Below the pieces are notes generated by a model. It was not told the origin of the DNA and made no database searches. It saw only the letters and a list, made by a program, of their open reading frames with translations. A DNA stretch of 64,000 nucleotides. Origin: Henckelia pumila (lineage: Eukaryota > Streptophyta > Magnoliopsida > Lamiales > Gesneriaceae). Within the stretch, counting starts at the first letter, position 1. Each line of letters begins with the position of its first letter. Location of the stretch: assembly GCF_033568475.1 (NCBI RefSeq), contig NW_027331840.1, forward strand, positions 1 to 64,000, written 5' to 3'. A program made the translations under genes and the position numbers. This document shows, one piece after another, positions 19,636-61,975 of this stretch.

Positions 19636-19638
19636 GCT

Positions 19639-19657
19639 TGGCGCCGTCTGTGAGAAA
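19639..19657 (+). other. Primer binding site, element 1
   Basis: TGGCGCCGTCTGTGAGAAA starts three bases after the LTR. TGGCGCCGT is the usual opening of Tat and Athila primer sites. Confidence 0.75.
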
Positions 19658-19696
19658 CCGTTCACTACGTCATTGAGAACACATATTACTTCAAAA

Positions 19697-27826: not shown

Positions 27827-27830
27827 CTGC

Positions 27831-27885
<55 letters not shown>

Positions 27886-29267: not shown

Positions 29268-29702
29268 TGATAGGTTACACCTAAAAATTCAACTGGGCCT
29301 GAGCCCAATCATGAAGGTCCACTCCAAATATTTTTGAGGCCCAAGCTTATTTAAATATTATATATATTTAAATCAAGCAGACTTTGAATTCTAAAAAAAC
29401 CCATACAAGGCTCAAGCCCGTGAAACTCTCCGAATATCTATAAATAGCTCAAGTCACCTCATTATTACGGTACACACTTTCTTTAGCACTATATCGTTCT
29501 ACTCTCGATTATTATTCCTTGAGTAATAACTGACTTGAGCGTTGGAGTGCCTTCGCCGGGAACCCTCCCGGCTTCTCTGACTTTGTTTTGTGACGTAGGA
29601 ACAACCCACTGAAGATCTTCCAAGGGAACGTACAAGGATTTATTCATACTCCGGACTTTGCGGAAGCAACGTGTTGAGTACAAGTGATTTTTGGCTACAT
29701 CA
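29268..29702 (+). repeat. 3' LTR of element 1
   Basis: 435 bp, TGATAGGTTACACC to TTGGCTACATCA, followed directly by ACTAC. Confidence 0.95.
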
Positions 29703-40200: not shown

Positions 40201-41076
40201 CACCGGTCTCATTTTCGGATCAATACGGAGGTGATGGAGCGCATATTCATTCGGTATTCCGGGCAAAGGCTCATCACCCCAAGCAAACACGTCCAAATTG
40301 CGACCAAGGAAATTTTTCAACTTCTCTTCCAGCTCAGGAGGTAATTCGGTCCCGATCTTTAGGGTTTTCTTGGGATCAGTTGGAATGATTGCCACATGTT
40401 TCAGAGTTTCGGTTGCTGTTATTCTCTCTTTGCTCTGGGCTTCTTCATCTACCAAATGTATTTCATTTTCACGTAAAAATTTTCCAGGTTTCGGTGCTTT
40501 TTCCTCATTAGAAACTTGTCTTTTACGATTTCCTGATTAACCCCGCAATGTCACCATATGACATTCTCTGGCTAGACGATGGTCACCAATGGCTTCTCCT
40601 ACTCCTCCTGGAGTCGAAAACTTCAGCTTCATATGATATGTCGATCCGATGGCTTGGAATATATTGAGACTTGGTCGTCTCAATATCACATTGTACGCAG
40701 ATGAAGTCTTTACTACAAGGAATTTCACCATCTTAGTAGACCGTTTGGGGTAAGAACCTAAGGAAAGAGGAAGCGTTACTTCTCCCAAAGCTTCAACTAT
40801 TTCTCCAGAAAATCCGACTAGTGGAGTGTTGACTGGAGTTAATTGTGCATTACTAATACCCAACTTCACGAATGTATCATGAAAAATTATGTCGGCCGAA
40901 CTTCCTAAATCCACTAGAATTTTCTTTACCCAAAAATTGAAGATTGTGGCTGAGATGATTAAAGCATCATTATGTGTGCCCCGAGGGTTCTCCAGATCTT
41001 TGTCACTGAATGCTAATCCATCTTGGATGGTTCCAATTTCATATATCGACAAGGATGTGGGGCTAGATAAATTGTT
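37288..41076 (-). pseudogene. Element 2 pol, decayed
   Basis: Minus-strand fragments 41121-40537 (protease), 40455-40162, 40053-38167 (RT and both RNase H), 38118-37609 and 37605-37288 (integrase) are collinear with element 1. The 41121 end of the first fragment runs into foreign DNA. The protease site reads VDLGSS (Ser to Leu, Asp kept). The RT motif reads YIDY in place of YIDD (Tyr codon at 39736-39738). The second RNase H passes through the site of element 1's stop with Glu. A deletion of about 51 bases near 38089 removes the first catalytic Asp region of integrase and shifts the frame. Confidence 0.92.
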
Positions 41077-41235
41077 GGGATAAAACCCAAAAACGTCCTT
41101 AAAGTTTCCTAACTTTCCCAAAAATATACTAACACTTTATTCGTTCCTAATTATGTCCCTTATTTAACAAATAGTTTCCTTAATATGTCCCTCAAAATAA
41201 AAATTGCCTATAATACCCTTATTCTAACAATTATA
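41077..41235 (+). repeat. Left terminal inverted repeat of the framed insertion
   Basis: About 150 bases, T/C-rich with repeated TCCTTA, TATGTCCCT and similar. Its partner is 59668-59827. Similarity is about three quarters in the best 60 bases by eye, so the frame is old. Confidence 0.7.
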
Positions 41236-41262
41236 ATTAATATTTCCTCTAGGCTAACAAAA

Positions 41263-41275
41263 TGGTATCAGAGCC
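41263..41275 (+). other. tRNA-Met primer binding site of the pararetrovirus
   Basis: TGGTATCAGAGCC, complementary to the 3' end of initiator tRNA-Met, as used by all Caulimoviridae. It lies about 90 bases before the first small ORF. Confidence 0.85.
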
Positions 41276-41352
41276 TAGGTAATTTTATTCAGACTTTATA
41301 TTATTCATTAAATCATACTTTTCTTTGTTGAGAAAGAGATTTTCAACAAATC

Positions 41353-41505
41353 ATGGATTCAAACGAGAGTTTGAACCAGAAGGATTTCATTTATATGAAA
41401 TCCCATAAACAAGTGAATCTATTTAAAATAGATTCTTTACAACAGAACTTAAAGAGACTTAGGTCTTTTATACTCTCTGAAGAGATTAAGAAATATGATT
41501 TCTAA
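41353..41505 (+). CDS. Small ORF (50 codons) of the pararetrovirus
   Basis: Starts ATG 41353 and ends TAA 41505, overlapping the start of the next ORF (41495). Lys- and Leu-rich, no recognised domain. The compact overlap fits viral gene spacing, but the ORF could be the decayed N-terminal part of a larger protein. Confidence 0.4.
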   Translation: MDSNESLNQKDFIYMKSHKQVNLFKIDSLQQNLKRLRSFILSEEIKKYDF

Positions 41506-41866
41506 TTCTCAATTTCTAGAGATCGCACCAGATTCCTCTAAACTCTCCGGAGATCTTAGAGAAATTCAAAAGACGATACAATATTACAGTAATCAGCTGT
41601 ATGAAATACCTCGACATATTGGAGAAATCCTTAAAAAACAAGAAGAAATTCTCGTAACTCTAAAGGATCTTCAAACTAAAATTATAAATCTAGAACATAC
41701 TTCTGGTTCTAGAAAGGGAAATACAGGAGGAAGGTTACCACTCTCGTTTGGTACCGAACCTCTGTTACATCAGAAAGGTAAAACCAAAAAGGTTCAAACA
41801 CCTTTAACTGATGATGAATTGATGATTAATCTTATAAAGACAGTATCAGAGAAAAACACTATCTGA
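41495..41866 (+). CDS. Coiled-coil ORF of the pararetrovirus (virion-associated-like)
   Basis: 123 codons. Its middle has heptad-like spacing of Leu/Ile (EILVTLKDLQTKIINLE) followed by a basic, Gly/Ser-rich tail. Small coiled-coil, nucleic-acid-binding virion-associated proteins precede the large polyprotein in several genera. The stop overlaps the next start as ATGA (41865-41868), the viral coupling signal. The assignment rests on size, coiled coil and place. Confidence 0.5.
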   Translation: MISNSQFLEIAPDSSKLSGDLREIQKTIQYYSNQLYEIPRHIGEILKKQEEILVTLKDLQTKIINLEHTSGSRKGNTGGRLPLSFGTEPLLHQKGKTKKVQTPLTDDELMINLIKTVSEKNTI

Positions 41867-42790
41867 TGACTACTTTAGAAAGATTAAATCTCGAGGATCT
41901 ACAAGATCTTGCGGATTCTTTTTCGAATCTTAAAGTAGTAGATCTAAAAATGAATTCTCCTGAGGGTGAACAACCCATAGGGAATCCCCCGAGATATGTG
42001 GTTAAAATAGAAGAACCACATAGTGAGTTCCATGTTGGAGAAAATTCACATCCAGCAGCAACCAGATCAAGAAGGAGTAATATACCAATACATCAAACTC
42101 CTTATGGAAAAACCGTTTTAGACCCGATACATCCTTATGGGGTTATGTTAAACCTGAATGTTTTGGACTTCAAAAATAGAGAAGATCTCATATATGATTG
42201 GACATCAGTCATGAGAATAGCAGCAGGAACTTTAGATCTCAATAAAGAAGGATTTATCAAACTTCTGAAAATGAGTCTAATGGGATCTGTCAAGATAGCT
42301 TGGGAAATGACCATGCCAGAAACCAAGGAATCAATCTTTAGCAGGAGAATCACTTAGCGAGATTGGAGGAAGAATGGCCACTCTTTTTAAAGCACAATTC
42401 ATAGGAGTAGACTATTTCAATAATCAAGATACAGAGAAAAAGAGAAGATATACTCAAGCTCTGTATAGCCTCGAATTACATGATATCTATTTAGTTGATG
42501 AATATATTATGTTATTCACCAAATACAGATGGAATTCGGGAGTTGAAGAAGTGGACCTACAAGAACATTTTGGTCCAAACAAAAGGCCAGAACCTATAGA
42601 TCGGGTAGAAGAAGTGGACCTACAAGAACATCCCCAGCAACAAACTCATCACAAGGAAGGGGAAGAACACCATCTAGAAGAACTTTCAGAAGAACTCATA
42701 CGAGAGCAAGTGAAAGTTTCAAGGATTGCAACTGCTGGACATATGGAGCAAAAGAACATATATCTACAAATTGTCTAGAAAACAAAAAAA
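41866..42790 (+). pseudogene. Coat-protein-like region of the pararetrovirus
   Basis: It opens in frame after the ATGA overlap, then shifts frame near 42350 and again before 42727. A capsid-like stretch (about 42090-42540) is followed by repeated Glu/His-rich sequence and a zinc-knuckle-like block at 42727-42771 in which the expected second Cys is Tyr. An acidic stretch (to about 42970) follows. The knuckle after a capsid domain is the family signature of the coat protein. The frameshifts and lost Cys show it is dead. Confidence 0.65.
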
Positions 42791-42823
42791 AAGGGAGTTA
42801 AACTCTTTGAAGCAACACCAGAT

Positions 42824-43804
42824 ATGGATGATGCGGTATTCTTTCAAGATCTAGTCCAAGTATATCAATTTGAAGATATCCCCTCAGATGAAAGTATATC
42901 GAAGAAGAGATATTGTTTAGTCAAGATGAATCTGAATATGAATCAGAATCAGAATCAGAATAAAGAAGAAGTATTTCGACACGAAACACAAGAGAGTTTG
43001 GCTGGATTTTTTAGTCAAACCACGATATCTCATAATATGGTCCAAAGGATTATGAGAGAAAATCCAATATTACAGAAGTACCAAGGATTTTCGGTAGGAC
43101 AATTAGAGAGGGTCTTAGGCAACCTAGGGCTAAGACAAAGAAGACATCATTTGATTTACAAAGTATCCAGAAGGGAAATGGCAATCCCGATGGAGTTAAC
43201 AAGTAATCAAATAGAGATGCAGTTAATTCCTTTTGAAGAAGTAAGAGAGGAATTGCAAAAGCTGAAAAGTGAGGTAGCAAGAACAATGTCTTGGATTCAT
43301 ATTGGAGCAATCCAAATAATGATCAAGGCAAATTTTAAAGAAGGAATAGATTCACCCATAGATATCATAGTATGTGATAAAAGAATGGGGAATATCCAAG
43401 ATGCTGTTCTGGGTACGATTTCAGGAAATCTATGTGCAGGAAAAATTGTAGGAGTTATTTATCCAAGAATAGCCTACAATTTAGCTGACAGAGACTTTAG
43501 TCGAGCCTTGAAGTTGCATCAAAACTTCAAGGAAAAAAGATTAATGAAGGAAGGTAATAGACCATATTCTATTACTTATCAAATTTCATATACTCTTTCT
43601 AATACGCACCATTCTGAATTATTTATTAGAAATGAGTTTATTGAAATTCCAGAAATCTTTGGAAAAGTTGCTCAAGCAATATACCCGGAAAGAATCGAGT
43701 TTCCTTTAATTCAGGAAATAGACATTCAAATACAAGATAAATCGGTTCTATACAGAGATCTAAAAATAGACCCCGAAGGTTATCTTTCCAAGGTGACCGA
43801 ATGA
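42824..43804 (+). CDS. Movement protein region of the pararetrovirus
   Basis: 326 codons open, ending TGA 43804. The part from about residue 150 shows the caulimovirus movement-protein pattern: WIHIGAIQIMIKANF, then DAVLGTISGNL, then a Lys-rich segment and YSITYQISYTLSN. The 30K-type protein moves virus through plasmodesmata. The N-terminal part is acidic and continues from the coat region. There is no proper viral start, so it was probably part of a polyprotein. This is the best-preserved viral domain here. Confidence 0.75.
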   Translation: MDDAVFFQDLVQVYQFEDIPSDESISKKRYCLVKMNLNMNQNQNQNKEEVFRHETQESLAGFFSQTTISHNMVQRIMRENPILQKYQGFSVGQLERVLGNLGLRQRRHHLIYKVSRREMAIPMELTSNQIEMQLIPFEEVREELQKLKSEVARTMSWIHIGAIQIMIKANFKEGIDSPIDIIVCDKRMGNIQDAVLGTISGNLCAGKIVGVIYPRIAYNLADRDFSRALKLHQNFKEKRLMKEGNRPYSITYQISYTLSNTHHSELFIRNEFIEIPEIFGKVAQAIYPERIEFPLIQEIDIQIQDKSVLYRDLKIDPEGYLSKVTE

Positions 43805-45242
43805 CAAGTCGAAGGTGGGAAAAATCTCCTATTTAGGAAATTCCACCATAAGAAAAGGAGTTTTCAATAATAGGAAAACTTAGATCTCCAGAATGATGGA
43901 AAGAAGTCAAGATAGTAATTGAAATTACAAGTCACAGTAACCAATTTTCTTGTAACTCGATTTACTATTTAGAGCAGCAGGTAACAGGAACTTACCAAAT
44001 AAATATTGGAGAATTGGAAGTTCAAATCTGTGGAATTCCAGGAAAATAAGTGGATCAGCTCATTCTTGGCCTAGAGTTTCTGGAGGACCATAAACCATGG
44101 AAACGCCTTGAAAAAGGAATAGAGTTTATGGCAAAAGAAAAGACTTGGAGGATTCAATAAGAATTCTACGAGATGAAAAATCAAGAGAATTGGATAAGGA
44201 ACAATCCCTTAATCAGATTTGAAAACTCTGTTTACAAACAGAGGAAGAAGAAATTATTGAAATTAGTAAGTCATGAACATGATTTACTAGAACGCATTGA
44301 AGAATTAGAAATGAGTAACCATACTCTACCTTCTGAGGCCTTAGGAAAACTAAAGGCAAATAGTCTTAATCGGATTACTGAGTTACAACACAGTCTGTTA
44401 AAAATGGCGGGGCCATTTAGTAATCCCTTTAAAAAAGGACAACAAGTCCTTTCTCCATATACATTCCAATAGGGATGTTGTATGAACAATATAAGGCTAA
44501 ATATTTTGCAGTTTATATTGACTCGGGAGCAGGAATTTGTACAGCAAAAAGAGGAGTCTTCCCTGAAGAATGTGAAGAAGAATTGCCAAAAATTGCTGGA
44601 CGAGATTTCTCTTTAAGAATTTTAATTCTTTGCAAAGGAATAAAACAAGCAGATATCCTTATAGGAAGAGCAGGTCAAACACCTTGGTACAAGGTAAAGA
44701 TGCCACCAATCTATTTCCATGATACAAGAGCTGATATCTTGTTAGAAAATAACTTCTTACAAATGTTTAAGAAGTACACACAAGACAATGAGTCAAGAAG
44801 GCTTATGTTCACTACAATTTGTGATCATAAAATTATCGTTCAACGACTCAAGGTTGCTTTTTATCGACAAATACCGATAATATTTCGCAGCCAGCGTGGT
44901 GATAAAGGACAACTTTTTCACCCAAAAATGAAAGATCCAAGAAGGTTTGGAGAAACCATGTTGAAAATAACAACAGAACGAGAACTCCAAACAGAGGATA
45001 TGGAGCTTCTCAAAGTAACTCTAAATCACAGAGATATAGAGTTAGAAAATAAAGTATCCCTTGAAGATGTCAAAAAGAGGCTCAAAGAAAGTTACAACGA
45101 GCATTCTTTGGCATGGTGGGATAGAAATCAACTCAAAGCCAGTCTTACTCTAAAGGAAGGCAAAGAGTATGAATTCGTCAGATATAAGCCTATCCCAATG
45201 AACATAATAGATCAAAGGGATATGAGAATGATTATCAAGTAA
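43805..45242 (+). pseudogene. Aspartic protease and start of RT, pararetrovirus
   Basis: The frame is broken by stops at 43804, 44048, 44160 and 44472. A coiled-coil-rich linker (44173-44472) precedes an aspartic-protease domain in 44475-45242 with VYIDSGAGICTA, the DSG active site. RT begins near 45180 (EFVRYKPIPMNII) and is stopped by TAA at 45240. The viral protease would cut the polyprotein. Confidence 0.7.
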
Positions 45243-45388
45243 TATTTGGACCTTGGTCTCATCAAAAAATGAGTTTCACCATATAGCAGCCCAGGTTTTA
45301 TGGTCAGAAATCATGGTGAAATAAAAAGAGGAAAACCCAGGTTAGTTATTAACTACCAAGGTATTAATAAAATCCTGGAATTTGATGG
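45243..45388 (+). pseudogene. Pararetrovirus RT, fragment 1
   Basis: Contains KPRLVINYQGIN, an RT motif typical of the family, with in-frame stops just before it. Ends at GATGG where solo LTR A entered. Continues at 47254. Confidence 0.8.
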
Positions 45389-47248
45389 TGAAAGAGTGGG
45401 TGCCCGGTTAGCCAACTTGTGGCTAAGGGACAATCTTTTGTTTAATATAATTTACACTTTTATAATGGCATTGACTTTATCTTTCTTCATATTGTTATAT
45501 TATGATATACTATTGTTGTTTTGATAAAGACCTTGAATATACTATAGTGTATGTAAGATGTGGTAGCACATGGGGATGGCTATCATGAAACACATCTTAT
45601 AGTCACTGTATATTCTAAACTGTTCCTAGTCAATTGAGCCGTCCGCAAATAACGATAAGGATCGCTCGAGATTGAGACTAGCATTTGCGATGCCGAGTAC
45701 CACGTTTCATTGGTATGAAACATAGAGATGTTCAAAGCATGCAAATGGATATTCATATGATGAATGATCGAACTACCCTATTCGGACTTTCCAAGTGGTT
45801 ATCACTTATCGAGTGGATAAAGTCCGCGGTTTTGGTTGTACACCATTCGTCCTTATTACTTGAAACATCATTGAGACTCTATATGCTAGTACTGTACTTT
45901 GACTCGTTTACCGACTCTATTGGGGTCATCAGGTGTCAGGATTGGGTACAGTTACGACACATATAGGAGTCGATGCTTTGTTGTCAAGGATTCACCACAT
46001 ACTTGCGAGTGTGGATATCCTATGCGATCTGAGGAGATATTAGTGTGACGAATCTCTGGCCAGAGTACATGATGTGTTTTAGGTTACTTGGTGTTCCTAG
46101 TAACACATGCGATGTCACTAATAGATCTCCAAGATGTTATGCATAGTTATCGAATCTCGAACGACTCTCGATGCACCAATGGTTGTTGATTCGATCGGGA
46201 TATTTGGTTGAAGGGACCGTACTGTACGCTAACCAAAATCTACTGGTTCTTGCAGGCACTATCAGTAATACCTAGGGAATCATGGGGCGATGTTGCTAGA
46301 CGCTCTTACCATGATTCGTTGGGCAAGTCAGAAATTGTTGTTCCGAGTCACAAGGAGTTGTGAGCCCACGGCTAGCTGTATTCCTGAACCATTGAGGGTT
46401 ACACAAGTAATGGATTACTAAAACCCCGTAGAGATAGTTAAATTTAAAGAGTTAAATTTAATGAAAGAGGAGTTGGACTTCTTAACTAAAGGGAGTGGGA
46501 TTTCCTAAAATAACATAGGGATTGACATTTTTGAAAATCACTGAATTCGGATTCAGAAAAATTATCTTGACTCTAAAAGATGCAGAAATGGTTTCTGTGC
46601 ACATTGGTGAAATCAGTTTATCAATCAGAGTCACGATGAATTTTATATTAATTTCTATAACAACAGGCTTGGCTTGTTGGGCTTAAGTTATGGATTGTGG
46701 GCTTTAAGGAGTTAGAGTCCTGATACAATTATAACTAGAAATTATCTATAAAAAAGGTTTTGGGTTCGAAAATTAGAGACATTGTATATTGCAATTTTAG
46801 AAAATACACTCTAGAATTTTCAAGGGGATTTTCGAAATCCTCTATCCCTTTTTGGAGAAAATTCGACTTGTGATTTTTGTGAAAAATTACAATTCGAATT
46901 AACAGATCAATTCTGTTTATTCTCTACGTAAAACTTCTGATTGATTTCTAGTGCAGTCAATCAGAGGGTTTCTGTTTTTCATTCGTGGACCTAATTCCGG
47001 AGTTAGATCGTGACTGTCATCGATTCCTGGGATTTACAAGAAGAGCAGATTAAATTCTGTTGGAGTCCACGATCAAGCCTTTGCTTGACGAGGTAAAAAT
47101 TTAACTGTGTTTTATTTTTACTTGAACAAATTTAATCGTAAAAGTTTTGATACCCATATATGGAATCGTTCCATATAATAAAATAAAATTTTAAACTTCC
47201 ACTGCACCGGGTATCAATTCTTAATTGATCTGAACACCGTTTTCAACA
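45389..47248 (+). mobile_element. Solo LTR A, inserted in the viral RT
   Basis: 1860 bp beginning TGAAAGAGTGGGTGCCCGG and ending TTTTCAACA, flanked by GATGG (45384-45388 and 47249-47253). TG...CA ends, a 5-bp duplication and no gag, pol or second LTR indicate a solo LTR. Lineage not recognised; the strand is arbitrary. ORFs inside (for example 45685-45966) look fortuitous. Confidence 0.8.
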
Positions 47249-47253
47249 GATGG

Positions 47254-47488
47254 GTACTTCATACCCAGTAGAGAACATCTAATTAGCTGTGTACGAAATG
47301 CTAGAGTATTCTCAAAATTTGATTGTAGGTCTGGATTTTACCAGATTCGAATGGAAGAAGGCAGTAAGAAATTCACAGCCTTCTCTACACCACAAGGACA
47401 TTATATCTGGGAAGTTATGCCTATGGGATTGGCTAATGCACCTCAAATATTTCAAAGAAAGATGGATAATCTTTTTAAAGATTATTTC
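47254..47488 (+). pseudogene. Pararetrovirus RT, fragment 2
   Basis: Collinear middle part of RT with the MPMGLANAPQIFQ motif, in changing frames. Ends at ATTTC where solo LTR B entered. Continues at 56859. Confidence 0.8.
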
Positions 47489-47616
47489 TGTGGGGACCCG
47501 GGTTGCTAATCTTATCTTAGGGCAATTTATAATACAACACAATGAATCAAGTACACAACGGATATAAAGATCTAAGAGCTAAAAAAAAAAATTTTTTTAA
47601 AACATTACAGTGTCTT

Positions 47617-47797
47617 GCTCAATCGGCGAAAGTTGCCCGATCGAGCGAGCTCAAACTAGAACTCTCGGGTCCATGGAATTCTTGGCCTCGCTCGATTGGT
47701 GAACTTCTACCGATCGAGCGGCCAAGAAAACTCAAACCCCCTGTTTTGCAAAATAAGGCCCTCGCTCGATCGGTGAACTTCTACCGATCGAGCGAGC
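47617..47797. repeat. Three copies of a near-palindromic CGCTCGATCGGT...ACCGATCGAGCG motif
   Basis: Copies at about 47617-47651, 47688-47720 and 47761-47797 have arms GCTCGATCGGT and ACCGATCGAGC around a centre GAACTTCT. The first copy is diverged. They lie in solo LTR B. Confidence 0.8.
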
Positions 47798-48786
47798 TAC
47801 AATTCCAGAAAAATGCAGGAAAGATTTTTGCTGTACAAACTTGAAACATACAAACATATACTCTGATACAAGCTTCAAAATAATATACATGCAATCTAAT
47901 AACATCTGATAAGCTTTCATACACAAGCTAAGACATATTCAACTACTTATACAACATTCTTGTATCCTTTCTCACATGTTTATCCACTCAAAGTACATGT
48001 TTTGCTGCTAAAACCCGTGTCCTCACATGCTAAGACTCTATCTCGAGCTATCCCTGTCTTTTCTGACCAGCTCCTGCCCCACTTATTGCCATGCACACAT
48101 ACAAAACAAAGCAATAGCCGGATACCTCCGGTGAGAATAAAATCCCAGTATAAACAACATAAAGCGCGAGATAATAAATGTGAATGCAATGCATATGGCA
48201 AAAGAGGCTATCAAGCTGATATCAATAGGATATAAGTTCTTTGGGATCCCGAGGAAATAAAATCTTTAACGAACACCAACTCACCAATCGAGGTGAAGTC
48301 AAATACTTTATTTCCTCTGACTTTGGTGCAACTATAGTGAGTCTTCTGGCTCTGGAAGTAAATCTACATTCCGTGCCATTCAACTACAGCCCTCCAAACG
48401 TAATATGCACTCTAGGCTTTTAACCCTCTGTGCTTATTAGGCTGGACTTCAAGATGAATGCAACATATTCTGTATGCATTAAATGCTATAAAACATCTTG
48501 AACAATTAATAACATAAGCAAGTAAAGCAACACAACCATGTAATCACATAAGGTACATAAGCAAATAAGTATGTGATTGACAAGGGAATACTCGAAACAA
48601 TAACTATTTCGAGTGTTCTATCCCATCTGGATTAGCTGTCATTTATACCTTTCGATGTCGAGTCTGAAAGTACTTCAAATCTGTAAATACAATCAACAAC
48701 AACATGTCAAAATCTGTTCAGCTTCTCAACTTCATTTCAAATACAATGCTAGCAAACCTTGCTTCAACTCCTTCTCGGTTCGACTC

Positions 48787-51728
48787 TGTAACGCCCAGAA
48801 ATTCGTCACGTAAATTCGCATGCATAACTAGGGGATTTTATAATTTTATAATAATGTGAAAATGTGTTAAATTGTTTTTAAGAGTGATTATTTAAATTAA
48901 TTGATTTATTTGCATGTTTTAAATATTATTTCGGCATTTAAATCTGTATGATGTGATTTATGAATTTATTTGAGAAAGTTTATTTTATGATCGCGTAGGC
49001 GGGACCGTGGACGGACGAGATGTTAGTTTTCACCCAAAATATTTTATGAGATTTTTAGGAGCCTTAAAATATTATTTTAAGGTAAGATTTAAAGAAAATT
49101 ATGGTATTTATATATATGTATATTTATATGTCCGTTTTTACCCAAAATAAGTCATTTTAATGACTTTTATTAAGCTTTAAAAATCCAATTATTTATAATT
49201 TCGGGATTTACTTAGTTTTAGCAAATTAAAATTTATTTTTTTTTAAAAGTTTAAAATTTGAGTATTTAATTATCCTGATTATCTATTTATTTTTAAACCT
49301 AGATTATCTTAAAAATCTACCCTAATCCTCCTACCTCCATTCACGTTTTCTTGCTAGCCGCCTCCTCAATCTTCTCCCACTCCCTTCATCGTTCCTTCAA
49401 CAGAAAACCCACCCCATAGCCGATCGTTAAAAGTTTTTGGAGTTTTTGGAAGATCCGTTCGTCCCGGCGAGCCCGATACGTGTCGTTTACGTCGTTTCGT
49501 CTAAATAATTCTCAAGGCATGTTTGATTTCCATTCTTGAACACCATTTAGATCATATACACTGATTTTAACATGAATGATTGTTGAATGCATGTGTTCTT
49601 CAGATTTGAATGAATTTTATCATAGTTCATGCATGTTCACGGTTTTGAGTATGTGACCCATTTTGTTTTGGCATCATGTCCAACCATGTTTGTTCGGGTC
49701 TGCTGCTCCGCTGTCAGGGGTCTGAGTCGAGGTCCTTAGGGTTGATTTAGCAAGGTGGTTCAGACCTATAGGTGGCCGGGTAAGCTACTGGGCGTGGGGT
49801 GCGTACAAGGGAGACGCATGGTGATGATGCGTTTGGGTCTTCGTTCTGGTTCATGGTCGGACCAGGGATGGACTGAGGGCTAAGGGTTCAAGTTAGAGTC
49901 CTTAGGGGCTGGTCTAGAGGGTGGCTCGGTCTTGGAGAAGGCAAGAGAAGGGGCTGGGCGTGAGTCAAGCAGTAGGTGGTTAAGGGTTGATAGTAGCAAA
50001 TCGCGGCAGCTTCGGGATTCCCGAATCGTGTGTCGCTAGGGCGGTGTAGGGATCGGTTCAAGGCGAGGCTTGGTTCGTTGGAACCGCCCAGACGTGGGCT
50101 ACGTCTGGGCGGTGGAGCTCCGGCCATTCGGCGGCCGGAGCTGGCCGGCAGCAGGCCTCAAAGCCTGCTGCTACACGGCCGTGACCTGCACAATTTTTGT
50201 GCAGGTCACGTTGGGTATTGGGGAAGTGGGCCGTGGGTTTGGGGTGTTCTTGGGCCGGGCTTGGGTCCTTGGATCCGGGTCCGGTTCGGGTCTAAATTTA
50301 TGGGTCAAATTATTTTTAGTCCGGGTCTAGATTTTTTTTAATAATTAGGCTTGGATATTTTATTTTAATTAATTAAGTGTTTAAGTTAGTAATTTATGGG
50401 TTGGAATTGATTAAATTAATTAATCGGACTAATTTAATGGGCTTAAAGTATGTTTTAAGTGAGCCCATTAGTTTTTCATGGGCTTGGGGGCCCATAAAAC
50501 TTAATGGGCCAGGTCAGGTTGGGCTTTTTGGTTTTTGAGTCAGTCTAGGAATTTTTGAGTTAAGTCTAGTGGTCAGCAGCTCGAACAAGTCCTTGGAAAA
50601 ATAAATGTTCGTAAATATATATTTAATTCATGCATGCATTTTTATTAGATATATAAGTATTATTTTTAAGAAAATAAATTAAATATATATTTACGGACAA
50701 ATTTTCATGAAAATAAAGAAATAATGAGAATTTTTATGTTCATGCATCATGTAACAATTTTTATGATAATTTTAAATGCATGTTAAGAAAAATATATTTT
50801 TATGGAAGTTGAAGTGAAGGTGGAAAGTGATGTGGTTGGAGGTCGGGATACCTGGGCCCGGTGACCTTCCTAATGATGTATAAGTATGATGAGCTTATGG
50901 ATCCAGCTGAGAGGGCTGGTGAAGTGGCAGCACAGAGGTGGAAACCCCACCGCCGCGTACGTTGGTTTAAGATTGATCAATCGCTCAGTATGATGCCACC
51001 GACATGGATACGACCTGTTGAGAACTAAGAAATCATGATATGTTATTTTTTACGAAAATTATAAAGTATGATGAATTATATTATAGCATGATGATTTAGC
51101 AGTATGATTATTTATTTATGTTTATATGCATATAATTTTAAGATCATGCACATATAATTATTATTCACGTATTTTATATGATGTGTGCTTGTGTGTGGTT
51201 TCATTTTGTTATGTAAGAATAGAACGTGCTGAGCCTCTAGGCTCACTAGATTTAAATGGTGCAGGTGAGCAGAATGTTAATGAAGTTAATGTGTTTCCGA
51301 CTGGCGGCGAGGGCGTATGAGTATCCAGGCGGCTAGAACCCGTGACCATTGCTCTAAGATGAATTTTATGTTGAGATTAGAACATTTATTTCCGCATATG
51401 TTTTATTATTATAGATTTTTCAGTATATGCATGAATTTTAGATTTAAGTATTTATTTTCTAAGTTTTCCTGAATTTTTTGTGAAAGAAATATTATTTAGA
51501 AATTTTATTATGGCATTCTTATAAATTATTATTTAGTAATTAATTTTAAGTATTTGATTGCATGCGTGTACTTTTATTGTATCCTTTGTGTATTTGTATT
51601 TTAAATTAATTAAAGTTATTTTTATGTATGATATATATATGTATGGGCATATATATATTTATATTCATTATTTTATAATTAGAGATTTTTTAAAAAAAAA
51701 AATTCAGTAGGAGTTTTAGGATGTTTCA
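48787..51728 (+). repeat. 5' LTR of the gag-only element
   Basis: 2942 bp, TGTAACGCCCAG to GATGTTTCA. AT-rich except for a GC-rich block (about 49690-50300) that contains four hairpins. Almost identical to 53103-56046, with scattered differences. Confidence 0.95.
50084..50209 (+). repeat. Row of four perfect hairpins in the 5' LTR
   Basis: Stems: CCGCCCAGACGT/ACGTCTGGGCGG (50084-50112), AGCTCCGGCC/GGCCGGAGCT (50116-50142), GCAGCAGGC/GCCTGCTGC (50148-50171) and GTGACCTGCACAA/TTGTGCAGGTCAC (50181-50209). Loops are 3 to 7 bases. The same row is in the 3' LTR at 54403-54528. Confidence 0.95.
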
Positions 51729-51730
51729 TT

Positions 51731-51747
51731 TGGTATCAGAGCCATGG
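51731..51747 (+). other. Primer binding site of the gag-only element
   Basis: TGGTATCAGAGCCATGG, tRNA-Met type, two bases after the LTR. Confidence 0.85.
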
Positions 51748-51928
51748 TCCTTGGAGGGTGACTAGTCTGCTTCTCGGAGCTCAGAAGCCGCACTGCCAGT
51801 CTGTAAGTTTTAAATGTTTTAAATTATGATTTATGCATGGGACACAGGATTTATATTTTCAATGATTTATGAAAATGAGAATTTAAAGTTATGACAGTCT
51901 TAAAGTCAAAAAAAAATATTAGTTATGC

Positions 51929-52986
51929 ATGGCGATTTACGTAAGAAATATGTGGTGGTGCAGAATGCCTCCGAGACCTATGAACCGACGTGGGGAATCT
52001 CCACCTCCACCTCCACCTCCGCAGAACCCTCTTGCAGCATTGGAGCAGGCCAATGCTAATATGATGACAGGGATTACTGCTGTGTTGGAGCAGCAGGCTG
52101 CACGTCCTAGACTGTCCCACGAGAAGGACGTTGCTGAGAGGTTCCAGAAGAAGGGGCCGAAGGAGTTCACTGGTACCACCGATCCATTGGTGGCTGACGG
52201 GTGGATTCGTTCTTTGGAGTCCATCTTTGCATACATGGGGATTACTGACGCCGACAGGGTGAACTGTGCGACTTATATGATGAGGGGAGATGCAGCTATT
52301 TGGTGGGAGGGTGCTGCCAGGGGAGTACATCTTCCTACATTGACTTGGGCGGAGTTTAGGCGTATCTTCTACGCCAAGTATTTCACGGAGGATGTGCGCA
52401 GTCGCATGATCCGGGAGTTTATGGTCTCCGACAGGGGGACAAGACAGTGGTTGAGTACATCAAGCAGTTCGAGAGGGGGTGTCATTTTGTGCCCCTGATT
52501 GCTGATAGTGCGCAGGAGAAGATGAGACAGTTTGTCGATGGGCTTAGGGCGGACATCAAGCATGATGTACGCATGTTGGACGTCACTACTTATGAGGCTG
52601 CGGTTAGTAGGGCATTGAGATCCGAGGATGGTAGGAAGGAAATCTTGAGGGAGCAACAGAGGAAGAGACAGTTCCAACCATCGTACCACGAGTCGCATCC
52701 ACAGCAGGATGCAAAGAAGCAGTCCACTGGGCCGTCGAAGGTACCAAATCCACTGAGACAGCAAGGAGCTATCGTTCCTCGTGCAGAAACACTACCTCTT
52801 TGCCAGAAATGCCAGAAGCCCCATCCAGGGCCGTGCATGAAGGAATCAGGCATGTGCTATCATTGCAAGGAACCAGGACACATCATGCTGCACTGTCCCA
52901 AGAAGAATGCTGTCGAACGTGTTTATGTGATGCAGGCGGAGGAAGCAGTGCCGGATACTTTGCGCATCACGGGTAATTTTTCTTAA
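51929..52986 (+). pseudogene. Gag of the gag-only element, one frameshift
   Basis: Two overlapping frames, 51929-52498 and 52447-52986, form one gag. It has a Pro run, the capsid domain (MMRGDAAIWWEGAARG, TWAEFRRIFYAKYF), then VEYIKQFERGCHFVPLI, a basic Gln-rich linker and a CCHC knuckle CYHCKEPGHIMLHC. The shift lies at a G run (about 52434-52438) that is one base short. The natural start is probably the Met at 51968. Translation stops at 52986, exactly where protease would begin in full-length relatives. Confidence 0.88.
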
Positions 52987-53088
52987 CGCATTAAAATTTG
53001 TCGTTTTGGGATTGCTCTATTCGGGACTACGCGAAGAAACTTGTTATTGCCTGGAGTTCGTTTCAATTTCGAGAACGAAATTCCATTT

Positions 53089-53102
53089 AAGGGGGAGAGA
53101 AT
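53089..53102 (+). other. Polypurine tract of the gag-only element
   Basis: AAGGGGGAGAGAAT directly before the 3' LTR. Confidence 0.85.
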
Positions 53103-56046
53103 TGTAACGCCCAGAAATTCGTCACGTAAATCCGCATGCATAACTAGGGGATTTTATAATTTTATAATAATGTGAAAATGTGTTAAATTGTTTTTAAGAG
53201 TGATTATTTAAATTAATTGATTTATTTGCATGTTTTAAATATTATTTCGGCATTTAAATCTGTATGATGTGATTTATGAATTTATTTGAGAAAGTTTATT
53301 TTATGATCGCGTAGGCGGGACCATGAACGGACGAGATGTTAGTTTTCACCCAAAATATTTTATGAGATTTTTAGGAGCCTTAAAATATTATTTTAAGGTA
53401 ATATTTTAAGAAAATTATGGTATTTATATATATGTATATTTATATGTCCGTTTTTACCCAAAATAAGTCATTTTAATGACTTTTATTAAGCTTTAAAAAT
53501 CCAATTATTTATAATTTCGGGATTTACTTAGTTTTAGCAAATTAGAATTTATTTTTTAAAAAAAAAGTTTAAAATTTGAGTATTTAATTATCCTAATTAT
53601 CTATTTATTTATTAAACCTAGATTATCTTAAAAATCTACCCTAATCCTCCTACCTCCATTCACGTTTTCTTGCTAGCCGCCTCCTCAATCTTCTCCCACT
53701 CCCTTCATCGTTCCTTCAACAGAAAACCCACCCCATAGCCGATCGTTAAAAGTTTTTGGAGTTTTTGGAAGATCCGTTCGTCCCGGCGAGCCCGATACGT
53801 GTCGTTTACGTCGTTTCGTCTAAATAATTCTCAAGGCACGTTTGATTTCCATTCTTGAACACCATTTAGATCATATACACTGATTTTAACATGAATGATT
53901 GTTGAATGCATGTGTTCTTCAGATTTGAATGAATTTTATCATAGTTCATGCATGTTCACGGTTTTGAGTATGTGACCCATTTTGTTTTGGCATCATGTCC
54001 AACCATGGTTGTTCGGGTCTGCTGCTCCGTTGTCAGGGGTCTGAGTCGAGGTCCTTAGGGTTGATTTAGCAAGGTGGTTCAGACCTATAGGTGGCCGGGT
54101 AAGCTACTGGGCGTGGGGTGCGTACAAGGGAGACGCATGGTGATGATGCGTTTGGGTCTTCGTTCTGGTTCATGGTCGGACCAGGGATGGACTGAGGGCT
54201 AAGGGTTCAAGTTAGAGTCCTTAGGGGCTGGTCTAGAGGGTGGCTCGGTCTTGGAGAAGGCAAGAGAAGGGGCTGGGCGTGAGTCAAGCAGTAGGTGGTT
54301 AAGGGTTGATAGTAGCAAATCGCGGCAGCTTCGGGATTCCCGAATCGTGTGTCGCTAGGGCGGTGTAGGGATCGGTTCAAGGCGAGGCTTGGTTCGTTGG
54401 AACCGCCCAGACGTGGGCTACGTCTGGGCGGTGGAGCTCCGGCCATTCGGCGGCCGGAGCTGGCCGGCAGCAGGCCTCAAAGCCTGCTGCTACACGGCCG
54501 TGACCTGCACAATTTTTGTGCAGGTCACGTTGGGTATTGGGGAAGTGGGCCGTGGGTTTGGGGTTTTCTTGGGCCGGGCTTGGGTCCTTGGATCCGGGTC
54601 CGGTTCGGGTCTAAATTTATGGGTCAAATTATTTTTAGTCCGGGTCTAGATTTTTTTTAATAATTAGGCTTGGATATTTTATTTTAATTAATTAAGTGTT
54701 TAAGTTAGTAATTTATGGGTTGGACTTGATTAAATTAATTAATCGGACTAATTTAATGGGCTTAAAGTATGTTTTAAGTGAGCCCATTAGTTTTCCATGG
54801 GCCTGGGGGCCCATAAAACTTAATGGGCCAGGTCAGGTTGGGCTTTTTGGTTTTTGAGTCAGTCTAGGAATTTTTGAGCTAAGTCTAGTGGTCAGCAGCT
54901 CGAACAAGTCCTTGAAAAAATAAATGTTCGTAAATATATATTTAATTCATGCATGAATTTTTATTAGATATATAAGTATTATTTTTAAGAAAATAAATTA
55001 AATATATATTTACGGACAAATTTTCATGAAAATAAAGAAATAATGAGAATTTTTATGTTCATGCATCATGTAACAATTTTTATGATAATTTTAAATGCAT
55101 GTTAAGAAAAATATATTTTTATGGAAGTTGAAGTGAAGGTGGAAAGTGATGTGGTTGGAGGCCGGGATACCTGGGCCCGGTGACCTTCCTAATGATGTAT
55201 AAGTATGATGAGCTTATGGATCCAGCTGAGAGGGCTGGTGAAGTGGCAGCACAGAGGTGGAAACCCCACCGCCGCGTACGTTGGTTTAAGATTGATCAAT
55301 CGCTCAGTATGATGCCACCGACATGGATACGACCTGTTGAGAACTAAGAAATCATGATATGTTATTTTTTACGAAAATTATAAAGTATGATGAATTATGT
55401 TATAGCATGATGATTTAGCAGTATGATTATTTATTTATGTTTATATGCATATAATTTTAAGATCATGCACGTATAATTATTATTCACGTATTTTATATGA
55501 TGTGTGCTTGTGTGTGGTTTCATTTTGTTATGTAAGGATAGAACGTGCTGAGCCTCTAGGCTCACTAGATTTAAATGGTGCAGGTGAGCAGAATGTTAAT
55601 GAAGTTAATGTGTTCCCGACTGGCGGCGAGGGCGTATGAGTATCCAAGCGGCTAGAACCCGTGACCATTGCTCTAAGATGAATTTTATGTTGAGATTAGA
55701 ACATTTATTTCCGCATATGTTTTATTATTATAGATTTTTCAGTATATGCATGAATTTTAGATTTAAGTATTTATTTTCTAATTTTTCCTAAATTTTTTGT
55801 GAAAGAAATATTATTTAGAAATTTTATTATGGCATTCTTATAAATTATTATTTAGTAATTAATTTTAAGTATTTGATTGCATGCGTGTACTTTTATTGTA
55901 TCCTTTGTGTATTTGTATTTTAAATTAAGTAAAATTATTTTTATGTATGATATATATATGTATGGGCATATATATATTTATATTCATTATTTTATAATAA
56001 AAGATTTTTAAAAAAAAAAATTCAGTAGGAGTTTTAGGATGTTTCA
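53103..56046 (+). repeat. 3' LTR of the gag-only element
   Basis: 2944 bp, the pair of 48787-51728; the hairpin row is at 54403-54528. The GC-rich block gives identical spurious ORFs in both LTRs. Confidence 0.95.
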
Positions 56047-56858
56047 GACTCGAAGATCACGAGTTCGGAAATCTTTTGACAAAATCTGAAATGAGATGTA
56101 TACAAGCTAACAAAATCAGATTCAATTCCAACCCTGCTTTATTCGGTCATCTATATCAAAGTCTTGACACTTTGCAAATCGACGGCGTAACGACTACAAA
56201 CTGGCAACCGAATCAATAACATAAGCAATCTACTTATATCAACTGACTCTTCAACATAGCATCAATAGAGAGACATGTTCAGCAACATATCAGACATGCT
56301 AATGTCGACTATAGCTTCAGAAATTCATATAAAATTGGAACAACAGCCTTTGTCCGAACCGTCTGCGAATACATAACCAGTACTAGCTGAAGCACATATA
56401 GAATCAAAAAGAATAACAACCCATCTACCACTTAAAAATAAAGTATAAGAAAGCTCAATAAAAATTATACCAAAATGAAGGTCTCAGAGCGGTGATCGCA
56501 GATATATATTTATCTGGAATTTCTGATGACCGGAACACGCAAAATCGAAGCTTTAAAAGACCGAAAATCTGAAAATGGCGTTTTGAAGGGTTGGACTTTG
56601 TTCTTCTCCTTCTCTTTCTGATGTTTACACGTTGAATTCAGATATTACAAGTGGGAATTAAGATAAATATAGCCAAATTGCAGTTTAGTCCCTGAACTTT
56701 TGGCTATTTGCAATTCAGTCCCCGGAAAAACGATTTAATTCAATTTCAATCCTTATTCATTTAAGAATATTAGAATTTAATTCTAAACTCTAAATATTCC
56801 CAAATTAAATATTCTCGGATTAAAATTAAATACTCCCGGGCCTTACAATTTCAATTTC

Positions 56859-57690
56859 ATGTTTGTTTATATTGATGATATTCTTATAGCATCAAAAAAC
56901 ATAGATAAACATATTAAACATTTAGAGATTTTCTCTAAAATTTGTACACAAGAAGGACTGGTTTTATCTGAAAAAAAAAGCAGTCATAGCAAAAAGGAAA
57001 ATTGTATTCCTTGGAATTGAGATTGATGAAACTGGAATAATTCTACAACCTCATATTGTGGAAAAGGTAAAGAATTTTCCAGATAAACTCAAAGATGTAA
57101 AACAACTCCAAAGTTTTCTAGGAGTAGTTAATTTTGCAAGGATGTTCATAAACAATCTGGCAATCTATAGAAAGGTGTTTAGTCCTTTGTTAAAAAAGGA
57201 TGCAAGGTTTATATGGACCGATGAACATACTAAAGGGGTGAACCAATTAAAGGAGATATGTAATAATCTCCCAAAAATGGCTATACCCGTGGATGAAGAT
57301 GATTTGGTGTTATTTACAGACGCCAGTGACGAATGGTGGGCAGCAGTTCTTACTAAGATCACTCCGGATGGAGAAATACCTTGCAGATACTGTAGCGATT
57401 TTTTTTCAGAATCTGAGGCTATCAGATGGCATATCAACGAAAAGAAATTTTATGCAGTTAAAAGGGCTTTCGAAAAATGGCCATTATTTTTACTTGCTAA
57501 AAAATTCACTTTGAAGGTTGATAACACTCAGGTAAAAGTCTTCCTAAGGAATATGATTGAATCTAAACCTGAGAAGGCTAGGTTATTAAGATGACAAGCT
57601 TTATGTCAAAATTATATTTTTGATATTGTTATTATTAAATCTCATGAAAATATTCTTGCAGATTTCTTAACAAGAGATGGAAGGCAGTGA
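56859..57690 (+). pseudogene. Pararetrovirus RT end and RNase H
   Basis: Starts at once with the RT catalytic block, YIDD at 56868-56879. A run of A near 56971 shifts the frame. The part 57058-57594 covers the RT thumb (LQSFLGVVNFARMF) and RNase H, with LFTDASD, NEKKFYAVKRAFE and LKVDN in order. A stop (TGA 57592) precedes the last RNase H block (ENILADFLT). These domains would convert pregenomic RNA to DNA. Confidence 0.85.
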
Positions 57691-57739
57691 CGTTGATTCC
57701 ATCATGAAAATGTAGAGGCATCTCAGGGAACACCTTGGG

Positions 57740-58885
57740 TTGCTTCAAACCGAGTTCAACCAGCTTGTCATAAGTGCCGATATGGCGGGCAGGTTACAAC
57801 AAGCTGATCGGATCAAAGTATCCAATCGAATCACAGGATGTATGCAAGCTCAAACTCAACTATGGGCTGCTATTCAAGGGCCTATTATGCGTGCCATAGA
57901 AAAACCACAGGTTTCTCAAAAACAAAAAATACAGCCACCGGTTGTAAAACAATATGTTGAGGATTCTAATACTCAAGAAACAAGCGCTAATCTATCATCA
58001 GCTTTTGATGATCTAGATAAAGCAACAATTGATGAGGATAACTCATCAAGTCAACTCTCCGCCTCTGGGGTAAAAGAGGAAGAGATCAATCATAGGCCCC
58101 ACACTGACAAGGGCAAATCTAAGATTGATACTAACCCAGCTGTAATTTCTCCATTTCAGGTTTATCAACAAAGATGGGAGAAATTAAGTACAAGAAGTGA
58201 AATCAACCTGATCACTTGCAGGGTTGATGTTGCAGGAATATATCCAAGGGTTTGGCTAAAAAACAATGTCAATCCTAAGGATGTAAAGCTATGGTATGAA
58301 TTTGGGGATCTAGCCTCAGTTTATACAATTTCACCAGGCTTTCAAGAAATATCACAACTACCAAAATGGATTCAGGAAGCAGTCCAAGAAAAATGGGCAA
58401 ATAATGATCATTTGTCCAAAGGAGATGGGCTCGAGTTATACTTCTTTAGTGCTGCTCCAGAACCAACAGGGAAAGGATCACACGAGCCCTTTCATTTCAT
58501 CAAGCTAAGGAGACCTGACATGAATAATCAAAGATTTATCAAGGATCCTATATCTGAAGAAATACCATTGGTGTCCACCTTTGGAGAAAATGAAATTTCA
58601 ACCAGAAGGGCATGGGGTATTTGGGTTTGTCTCACCGAGATGGATAAGGTCAAATTTCCATTCAAATTTTATCAAAATTCTGTGAACGGATCATTCCTGT
58701 TAAACACAATGACAGGAAAAACTACGGCTTTTGCGGAAGAACTCTTCGAAAAGAAGAGGAACTTTTTGTGGAACAACAAGCTGCCAGGGAGTAAAGAAAC
58801 TCGCCGAAAATTTTGTAACATGGCTCATATCGGAAAATGGTCAAAGAATATCTGCCCAGAATGTCCAAACCAGAAGGAGCCATAA
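57740..58885 (+). CDS. Last ORF of the pararetrovirus, transactivator-like
   Basis: 381 open codons (first ATG at 57782) ending TAG-free at TAA 58885. An N-terminal Gln-rich part and a Ser/Asp-rich linker precede a folded-looking core with VWLKNNVNPKDVKLWYEFGD and a C-terminal Cys pair (CPECP). A separate ORF after RNase H is where cavemo-, solendo- and caulimoviruses encode the translation transactivator and inclusion-body protein, and the WYEFG-SVYT pattern is reminiscent of it. I am not certain. It is the longest intact viral ORF here, which may only reflect chance. Confidence 0.5.
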   Translation: MLQTEFNQLVISADMAGRLQQADRIKVSNRITGCMQAQTQLWAAIQGPIMRAIEKPQVSQKQKIQPPVVKQYVEDSNTQETSANLSSAFDDLDKATIDEDNSSSQLSASGVKEEEINHRPHTDKGKSKIDTNPAVISPFQVYQQRWEKLSTRSEINLITCRVDVAGIYPRVWLKNNVNPKDVKLWYEFGDLASVYTISPGFQEISQLPKWIQEAVQEKWANNDHLSKGDGLELYFFSAAPEPTGKGSHEPFHFIKLRRPDMNNQRFIKDPISEEIPLVSTFGENEISTRRAWGIWVCLTEMDKVKFPFKFYQNSVNGSFLLNTMTGKTTAFAEELFEKKRNFLWNNKLPGSKETRRKFCNMAHIGKWSKNICPECPNQKEP

Positions 58886-59058
58886 TTCGGAAAAACCTTC
58901 AAACCCCGAACGGATCGAAAAGATTTTTTCGAGACAAGCAAAGGTGGACAGGGACCACCAAAACCACGTTTTCCCAGGGGCCCACTGCAAAAGCAAAAGA
59001 TGCCCCGACAACAATAAAGAAGGCATGTGAGGAGAATAAATCCAAAAGAAAAAGTCAA

Positions 59059-59126
59059 GCATGTGACTCCTCCACTAGTAAAAGATGTCATCGGGCATGT
59101 GACTCCCACTAGCAAAAGATGTCATC
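59059..59126 (+). promoter_or_regulatory. Direct repeat upstream of the viral TATA box
   Basis: GCATGTGACTCC...CACTAGTAAAAGATGTCATC at 59059-59092 and a close copy at 59095-59126, ending 74 bases before the TATA box. The position fits an enhancer pair of the pregenomic promoter. Confidence 0.6.
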
Positions 59127-59200
59127 AATAATGGCATAAAAAATTCAAAACAACTGTAAGATTTCCTGAAGTTTCTCGGTGAAACGAGTGGAACTTCGGC

Positions 59201-59208
59201 TATAAATA
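59201..59208 (+). promoter_or_regulatory. TATA box of the pararetrovirus pregenomic promoter
   Basis: TATAAATA follows the last ORF, where Caulimoviridae place their 35S-like promoter. An AATAAA signal at 59261-59266 lies about 60 bases downstream, as expected for the terminally redundant transcript. Confidence 0.7.
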
Positions 59209-59229
59209 CAGGATTTTAAGGAAGCTGAA

Positions 59230-59660
59230 AATATCGATCATTTCTTTCAGTTTTCTTACAAATAAAACATTGTAATATTTCTCTTTCTATTGTATTAAGT
59301 TTTACTTTTATGTATTTCAAGAACAAGGCTACTATGAGTAGCTAAACAAGTTATCTCCTCCTCTTCAAAGGAGGTTGATTTATGTAATAATATGTTGTCT
59401 GAATAAATTTCCAAAGCTCTTCTCTATCATGTTATTTTATTTAAAAAAATTAAGCTTTTACTATACGCCCTAAGGTAGGAAACGAAATAGGGTTGTGCTA
59501 GCTGCTGCTGAAGGATTCTGTGTCAGGAACCATCGGTTGCGATCGCGTGGTTTGGTTGTGAGGAACAACCTGTAAAACCCGGTGGACATAACCCGGCAAC
59601 AGTGTGGTCAAAGAGGTATTCTGCTTTAATTTACTGACAAAAGCATGATGGGATTAAGCC
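59230..59660 (+). other. Leader region of the pararetrovirus
   Basis: No long ORF. In the circular viral genome this leader would lead to the primer site that is now at 41263. The GC content rises at 59500-59620. Confidence 0.55.
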
Positions 59661-59667
59661 TTTAAAT

Positions 59668-59827
59668 TTTAAATAGGGAAATAAAGGGTAGAATGGGAAT
59701 TATTTAGTTTTAAGGACAAATTCAAGAAACTATTTAATGAATCAGGGATATATTTGGAACATGAAAAGTGAAAGGGATATAATACGGAAAATGGAAAAGA
59801 TACAGGGATATATTTAGGAATTGTCCC
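59668..59827 (-). repeat. Right terminal inverted repeat of the framed insertion
   Basis: Inverted partner of 41077-41235; ends ...GGAATTGTCCC before TAAATTGTT. Confidence 0.7.
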
Positions 59828-59836
59828 TAAATTGTT

Positions 59837-61340: not shown

Positions 61341-61359
61341 GTTCCCATGGACGGCGCCA
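61341..61359 (-). other. Primer binding site of element 2
   Basis: Minus strand TGGCGCCGTCCATGGGAAC, four bases inside the partial LTR copy. It differs from element 1 after the first ten bases. Confidence 0.7.
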
Positions 61360-61362
61360 AGC

Positions 61363-61541
61363 TGATGTAGCCAAAAATCACTTGTACTCGATACGTTGCT
61401 TTCGCAAAGTCCGGAGTATGAATAAATCCTTGCACGTTCCCTTGGGAGATCTTCAGTGGGTCGTTCCTACGTCACAAAATAAAGTTAGAGGAGCCGGGAG
61501 GGTTCCCGGATAAGACACTCCGACGCTCAAGTCAGTTAAGC
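61363..61541 (-). repeat. Partial tandem copy of the 5' LTR of element 2
   Basis: 179 bases equal to the 3' third of the LTR plus the four bases AGCT-side junction, placed between the full LTR and the PBS. It ends inside the LTR at AACTGACTTGAG (minus strand). Confidence 0.88.
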
Positions 61542-61975
61542 TGATGTAGCCAAAAATCACTTGTACTCGATACGTTGCTTCCGCAAAGTCCGGAGTATGA
61601 ATAAATCCTTGCACGTTCCCTTGGAAGATCTTCAATGGGTTGTTCCTACGTCACAAAATAAAGTCAGAGGAGCCGGGAGGGTTCTCGGCGAAGACAATCC
61701 GACGCTCAAGTCAGTTATTACTCAAGGAATAATAATCGAGAGTCAGCGTTATAGTGCTAAAGAAAGTGTGTACCTTAATAATGAGGTGACTTGAGCTATT
61801 TATAGATATTCGGAGAGTTTCACGGGCTTGAGCCTCTTATGGGCTTTTGTAGAATTCAGGGTCTGCTTGAATTAAATATATATAATATTTAAATAAGCTT
61901 GGGCCTCAAAAATATTTGGAGTGGACCTTCATGATTGGGCTCAGACCCAATTGAATTTTCAAGTGTAACCTATCA
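61542..61975 (-). repeat. 5' LTR of element 2
   Basis: 434 bp, pairs with 29890-30597. TATA box (minus CTATAAATAG) at 61796-61805. Followed by the target duplication AGAGT. Confidence 0.94.

Follow-up and report, generated by a model that had tools for sequence, protein, structure and literature searches.

A probable Mutator-type transposon carrying an endogenous caulimovirid genome in Henckelia pumila

The window analyzed here, a 64,000-nucleotide stretch of Henckelia pumila DNA (contig NW_027331840.1, positions 1 to 64,000), contains an endogenous pararetrovirus flanked by two long inverted arms. Arms and virus together (41077-59827, spanning 18.75 kb) constitute a single precise insertion within a gypsy-type retrotransposon. 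The 9-bp sequence TAAATTGTT is present on the plus strand on both sides (left copy 41068-41076, right copy 59828-59836) and directly adjoins the outer ends, GGGATAAAACCC, which starts at 41077, and the inverted GGGACAATTCCT, which stops at 59827. An initial reading made without database searches (the sequence-only reading) had described both the duplication and the inverted ends immediately inside it, and both were found as described. The window holds two related gypsy-type elements in opposite orientation, at 19194-29702 (long terminal repeat (LTR) divergence K 0.019) and 30172-61982 (K 0.038). The framed virus sits in the latter, and the former provides an empty target site (approximately 21161-21169, minus strand) in which TAAATTGTT occurs once; the flanks of the insertion, joined with one TAAATTGTT, align with this other copy without a gap at the insertion point. 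Since the other retrotransposon copy holds the site once and ungapped, the 9-bp repeat is a true target duplication. By Pfam, the host retrotransposon has a gag and a gypsy-type domain and nothing further; the more specific name Tat comes from the sequence-only reading. We also considered the left end as a copia LTR (TGTTGGG...CTAACA beside the primer-binding site), and rejected this because TGTT belongs to the target sequence in the empty site.

The left arm, a terminal inverted repeat with the outer end GGGATAAAACCC, occupies 41077-41262 on the plus strand, and the right arm, with the outer end GGGACAATTCCT, occupies 59645-59827 on the minus strand, its inner limit being approximate. Left arms are 94.6-98.4% alike among 8 copies, and right arms 91.8-98.9% alike among 13 copies, the window copy included in both. 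The two arms of the window align over about 165 bp with 66% identity, and the alignment scores under two schemes (65 and 54) exceed those of all 1000 dinucleotide shuffles (maxima 37 and 28), so that the long terminal inverted repeats claimed at the outset are not background similarity. The block AAATAGTTTC, reported to lie exactly 92 bases from each end, does begin 92 bases inside both (41169-41178, with its complement at 59726-59735). Just before the primer-binding site, the triplet at 41256-41258 is variable in 28 copies (AAC in 12, CAA in 7, CAG in 5, CAC in 2 and TAG in 2), with nearly constant surroundings. A 9-base near-repeat at both virus edges was considered as an integration scar and discarded, as it is absent from 12 other right ends read.

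Between the arms, the features follow one another on the plus strand in the order primer-binding site, coat zinc knuckle, movement protein (MP), protease, reverse transcriptase in three pieces, RNase H, a 381-residue open reading frame (ORF), and a TATA box with leader. The motif TGGTATCAGAGCC (41263-41275) resembles a primer-binding site, which we take to be that for Met-tRNA. The end of the coat-protein region with its zinc knuckle (42562-42774) was located by tblastn to protein P0076, and the viral MP (42824-43804; PF01107, E 3.8e-31) and an aspartic protease of the Cauliflower mosaic virus (CaMV) type (44475-45242; PF02160, E 5.2e-9) by Pfam. The stretch leading into the reverse transcriptase, together with the first piece of that domain, was found by tblastn at 45033-45388. 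The second piece (47249-47488) begins with GATGG, the 5-bp duplication that flanks a 1,860-bp solo-LTR-like nested insertion (45389-47248), and it is separated from the last piece (56850-57020; RVT_1, E 5.3e-9 on 56787-57020) by a 9,359-bp retrotransposon-like insertion (47489-56847) with the 5-bp duplication ATTTC. RNase H follows at 57058-57594 (PF17919, E 4.5e-17; PF17917, E 1.4e-14).

The 381-residue ORF (57740-58885) has no Pfam match and 89 relatives. A fold search against BFVD pointed to a transactivator/viroplasmin-like (TAV-like) protein: 12 of the top 14 matches were named as caulimovirid transactivator, ORF VI or inclusion-body proteins, with a best named E of 7.3e-6 and 12 matches at E<=0.001, obtained from a low-confidence model (pLDDT, the predicted local distance difference test, 55). 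A TATA box recognized by motif only, TATAAAT (59201-59207), precedes a leader that reads towards the right end, and the predicted fold of this leader is no better than that of shuffled sequences, 44 of 100 of which equal or surpass it. With MP, CaMV-type protease, reverse transcriptase and RNase H in order, a transactivator and a primer-binding site, the cargo is an endogenous member of the Caulimoviridae. The claim that 41077-59827 is a framed pararetrovirus therefore holds for the presence of the virus and not for all of the 18.75 kb, the excess being explained by the two nested insertions. Minus these, the window unit measures about 7.5 kb; the coat region is about 310 bp longer in all seven other copies read there, which makes the unit about 7.8 kb in the other copies.

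The larger nested insertion encloses an LTR element (48787-56046, plus strand) with 2.94-kb LTRs that are 98.8% alike, the duplication GACTC, a primer site TGGTATCAGAGC at 51731 and weak gag matches only; it probably belongs to a non-autonomous family. The window copy of the framed virus is younger than the host retrotransposon (LTR K 0.038) and older than the nested gag element (K 0.011).

Sesamum and Phlomoides rotata have many relatives of the viral proteins (P0001-P0209), and others occur in Salvia, Perilla, Phtheirospermum and Dorcoceras; the named host plants among the matches listed are presumably all Lamiales. Scans of viral contigs for relatives found none, nor did one query each in plasmid and phage collections.

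The framed virus is not confined to the window. We searched the host genome (884,658,702 bases, 133 contigs), scoring the best 40 candidates in each similarity search, such that the samples lean to well-preserved copies; the first-look candidates (1071 for left arm plus virus, 371 for right arm plus virus and 1238 for a piece of the coat region) are not copy counts. All 40 scored matches to the left arm plus virus start, at 96-100% identity, have their outer end within 2 bases of that in the window copy (38 begin at base 1 and two at base 3), and all 41 matches to the right arm plus virus end likewise fall within 2 bases of the outer end, the window being included in both sets. When the coat-region piece, which has no arm sequence, served as the query, the left arm was at the expected place in 36 of 40 scored copies, partial in one and absent in three; for one of these three (L182), left ends are listed about 0.9 kb further out. 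Arm and virus occur together at 57 places (the 40 left-arm matches plus 5 and 12 more). A left-end pattern with at most 2 mismatches occurs at 130 places genome-wide, part of which were checked for virus content, and its reversed control at none. Starting from 20 left ends, the right arm was found at the expected distance in 13 (2.5-kb stretch read), and starting from 20 right ends, the left arm was found at 7.3-8.3 kb in 5. Copy length was 7.74-8.10 kb in 17 of the 18 measured; coordinates gave six further arm pairs, four of 7.78-7.93 kb and two of 9.7 and 12.7 kb.

The duplications recur with the copies. Both flanks were available for 25 copies (13 found from the left end, 5 from the right end, 6 pairs from the lists, and the window), and these comprise 15 perfect 9-mers, 3 perfect 10-mers, 5 with 8 of 9 bases matching and 2 without a duplication. 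By comparison, 552 mismatched flank pairs gave no perfect duplication and a single match of 8 of 9. Copies #21 and #24 have one flank pair in common, leaving 24 independent copies, and all other flanks differ. The search for further virus copies between the same inverted repeats that the sequence-only reading had proposed has thus yielded many, with different flanks and mostly perfect 9- or 10-bp duplications.

Some ends depart from this general picture. Left ends ending in CCTCAA define a subfamily with one common change (at least 14 places have this and no other change, and the top-40 matches include none of them) and could be another viral subfamily or a virus-free parent transposon. Two right ends face each other 45 bp apart (G000:C3:59611548-59612047) and two left ends lie 47 bp apart (C2:33550455-33550527), as might result from clustered or nested insertions of the family. 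The first 14 bases past the right end are identical, on different contigs, for L132/L152/L168 (C3:102784253), a copy without a left arm whose virus match begins 35 bases after the arm, and for copy #29 (C4:107175519). A common flank was also seen for the right ends L158 and L161 (C79:21741 and C3:143098353).

The genes of the copies give some indication of the state of their source. Of 38 stretches read, 32 contained MP. It matches a relative's protein in 31 other copies, 22 of them in a single frame, and any one MP stop codon occurs in at most 6 of the 31 sequences compared (the window and 30 copies). Of 15 copies, 11 keep the TAV-like ORF in one frame, and 3 of the 15 have no stop in it. In neither gene do the copies read have a defect in common, which means that both genes were open in the source. 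MP sequences differ by a mean of 3.8% between pairs, and 228 of 349 changes are singletons, which resembles a burst. The ratio of nonsynonymous to synonymous changes in MP, relative to neutral, was lowest among doubletons (0.48, p 0.0015), with 0.93 (p 0.35) among singletons and 0.76 (p 0.28) among changes found in at least three copies, a mixed result confounded by C-to-T changes.

We think it probable (about 0.8) that the element is a non-autonomous DNA transposon of the Mutator type, that is, a Mutator-like element (MULE), with one unit-length endogenous caulimovirid genome as its cargo, and that it was moved in trans. Long inverted arms and 9-10 bp duplications are the signature of Mutator. 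The arms here are about 165-186 bp long, and 18 of 25 duplications are perfect at 9 or 10 bp, within the 9-11 bp expected for MULEs. It is these arms and duplications, together with the precise ends, the many sites and the finding of no transposase in the element, that lead us to a non-autonomous MULE mobilized in trans. The GGG termini of the arms adjoin host DNA and their inner ends adjoin the virus, which places the virus within the transposon and not the reverse. These observations suggest that transposon machinery spread a virus that lacks an integration enzyme.

From what was read directly (the frame, the cargo, its multiplicity, the duplications, the empty site, and MP and TAV-like genes with no common defect), the following course of events may be proposed. 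Viral DNA would have been opened next to the primer-binding site and joined between the arms of a MULE or a MULE-derived miniature inverted-repeat transposable element (MITE), probably through end joining at its center. An opening point just upstream of the primer-binding site would fit a linear or gapped product of reverse transcription, for which the gap of CaMV is a precedent. Recognizing the arms, a MULE transposase encoded outside the element could then have inserted the composite of about 7.8 kb at many new sites, with 9-10 bp duplicated each time; copy number may have risen through replication-linked transposition or otherwise. The copy in the window would have landed in the gypsy-type element and later been hit by other retrotransposons.

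Several points weigh against this interpretation. Pfam searches with 17 ORFs and frames from the insert found no mudrA-type transposase, although none is required of a non-autonomous member, and the similarity between left and right arms is only 67-78%, which is low for a MULE with terminal inverted repeats. The partner arm is missing at the expected distance in 7 of the 20 copies approached from the left and in 15 of the 20 approached from the right. One of the former (#14) has its right arm at 9.7 kb, and in all 15 of the latter virus lies beside the right arm, 11 of them nearly filling the 2.8-kb piece compared. Two of the 25 copies with both flanks (#8 and #11) have no duplication in register, that of #11 being a 9-mer shifted by one base. 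The presence of virus was checked at only part of the 130 left ends, and the synonymous excess among MP doubletons (0.48) is unexpected under pure DNA transposition.

The sequence-only reading had offered two options, that the virus entered a MITE or MULE or that a MULE-type frame carried the virus. The many framed copies speak for carrying. A single integration by repair into a resident palindromic MITE, with the frame a coincidence of position, has an attraction in that caulimovirid DNA has been proposed to fill breaks at hairpin-forming repeats (PMC10377300, PMC4241990), and the center of such a MITE would be a place of this kind. As the whole story, this is refuted by the repeated framed copies: arm and virus occur together at 57 places, with precise ends and with duplications at differing sites. 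A search of the host genome for virus-free fused arms with one exact pattern (24 bases at the expected spacing), which misses mutated copies and so could miss rare MITEs, found 0. We regard this explanation as highly improbable and would retain such an integration at most as the founding event. It also seems quite improbable, if slightly less so, that the arms are viral sequence unrelated to any transposon and that end-specific integration of some other kind makes the 9-bp duplication. The left arm does accompany 36 of 40 virus copies, and no arm was shown to be virus-free; the combination of long inverted arms with 9-10 bp duplications is, however, that of Mutator, and pararetroviruses are said to rely on host repair and not on active integration (PMC8256270).

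A more serious alternative, which we nevertheless hold to be unlikely, also takes the arms as part of a replicating virus. The right arm would join the left in the leader of the circular genome, forming its leader hairpin, and circles would be inserted by a host MULE transposase acting at the joined arms. Caulimovirids carry a leader hairpin between the TATA box and leader and the primer-binding site, and the arms, which are complementary, lie exactly between these (59201 onward and 41263). With the arms at this place, a virus whose circle has them joined would be plausible, and its integrase could be a host transposase. The open MP and TAV-like frames in the source of the copies, the synonymous excess among MP doubletons and the variability, across 28 copies, of the triplet that precedes the primer-binding site would also fit. 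Repair-type integration of circles should, however, leave some arm-to-arm junctions, and a pattern of 23 exact bases with a spacer of 0-30, which misses mutated junctions, occurred 0 times genome-wide. In 8 copies including the window, no right arm was seen in the 1.5 kb that precedes the left arm, and no exogenous relative turned up in the viral-contig scans. An element with two engines, in which a reverse-transcribing circle has the arms in its leader, host Mutator transposase replaces the integrase, and the DNA alternates between circle and transposon, is a comparably doubtful proposition.

If the interpretation as a Mutator-type transposon with viral cargo is correct, the nearest precedent is Teratorn, a fusion of a piggyBac transposon and a herpesvirus in teleost fish that is about 180 kb long, has its own transposase, and has been proposed to have turned the virus into an intragenomic element (PMC10175614). 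In both, the ends of a transposon are joined to a complete viral genome, which has multiplied in the manner of a DNA transposon. The element described here differs in being a plant pararetrovirus of about 7.8 kb with Mutator-type ends and no transposase found in it. The proposed first step also differs, since for Teratorn the review proposes a transposon that jumped into the virus (PMC10175614), whereas the orientation of the arms here puts the virus inside the transposon.

Pack-MULEs likewise place a Mutator-type frame around captured foreign DNA, with duplications of a length like that seen here. Their ends enclose fragments of host genes; the cargo here is viral, a unit-length genome with a promoter motif and the main genes. 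The captured DNA of Pack-MULEs is described in PMC10741241 as consisting of functional genes or parts of genes. Ordinary endogenous caulimovirids (florendoviruses, petuviruses and others) share with the cargo its gene content, its basis in a virus with reverse transcriptase, and its many degraded copies per plant genome. They are described as having integrated passively through repair, in many cases at (TA)n and in many cases with rearrangement (PMC10377300, PMC4241990); in contrast, the copies here end at fixed positions and most of them have a target duplication. The CAULIFINDER paper (PMC9719215) reports that one of its runs gave no chimeras of transposable elements and caulimovirids. Our literature search, which covered titles and abstracts, with subscription papers and preprints outside its scope, found no Mutator-framed pararetrovirus, and within that search this is the first fusion of a cut-and-paste transposon with a viral genome found for a reverse-transcribing virus or for a plant. 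The main explanation for endogenous pararetroviruses has been that viral DNA passively fills breaks in the host DNA. Fixed ends with target duplications are the mark of a transposase and point to another route to high viral copy number.

Two further features of the surrounding DNA were recorded. A tandem duplication of 179-180 bp (61359-61717), with units 95% alike, lies at the LTR edge of the retrotransposon, and an ACC-synthase-like exon is present in the flanking DNA.

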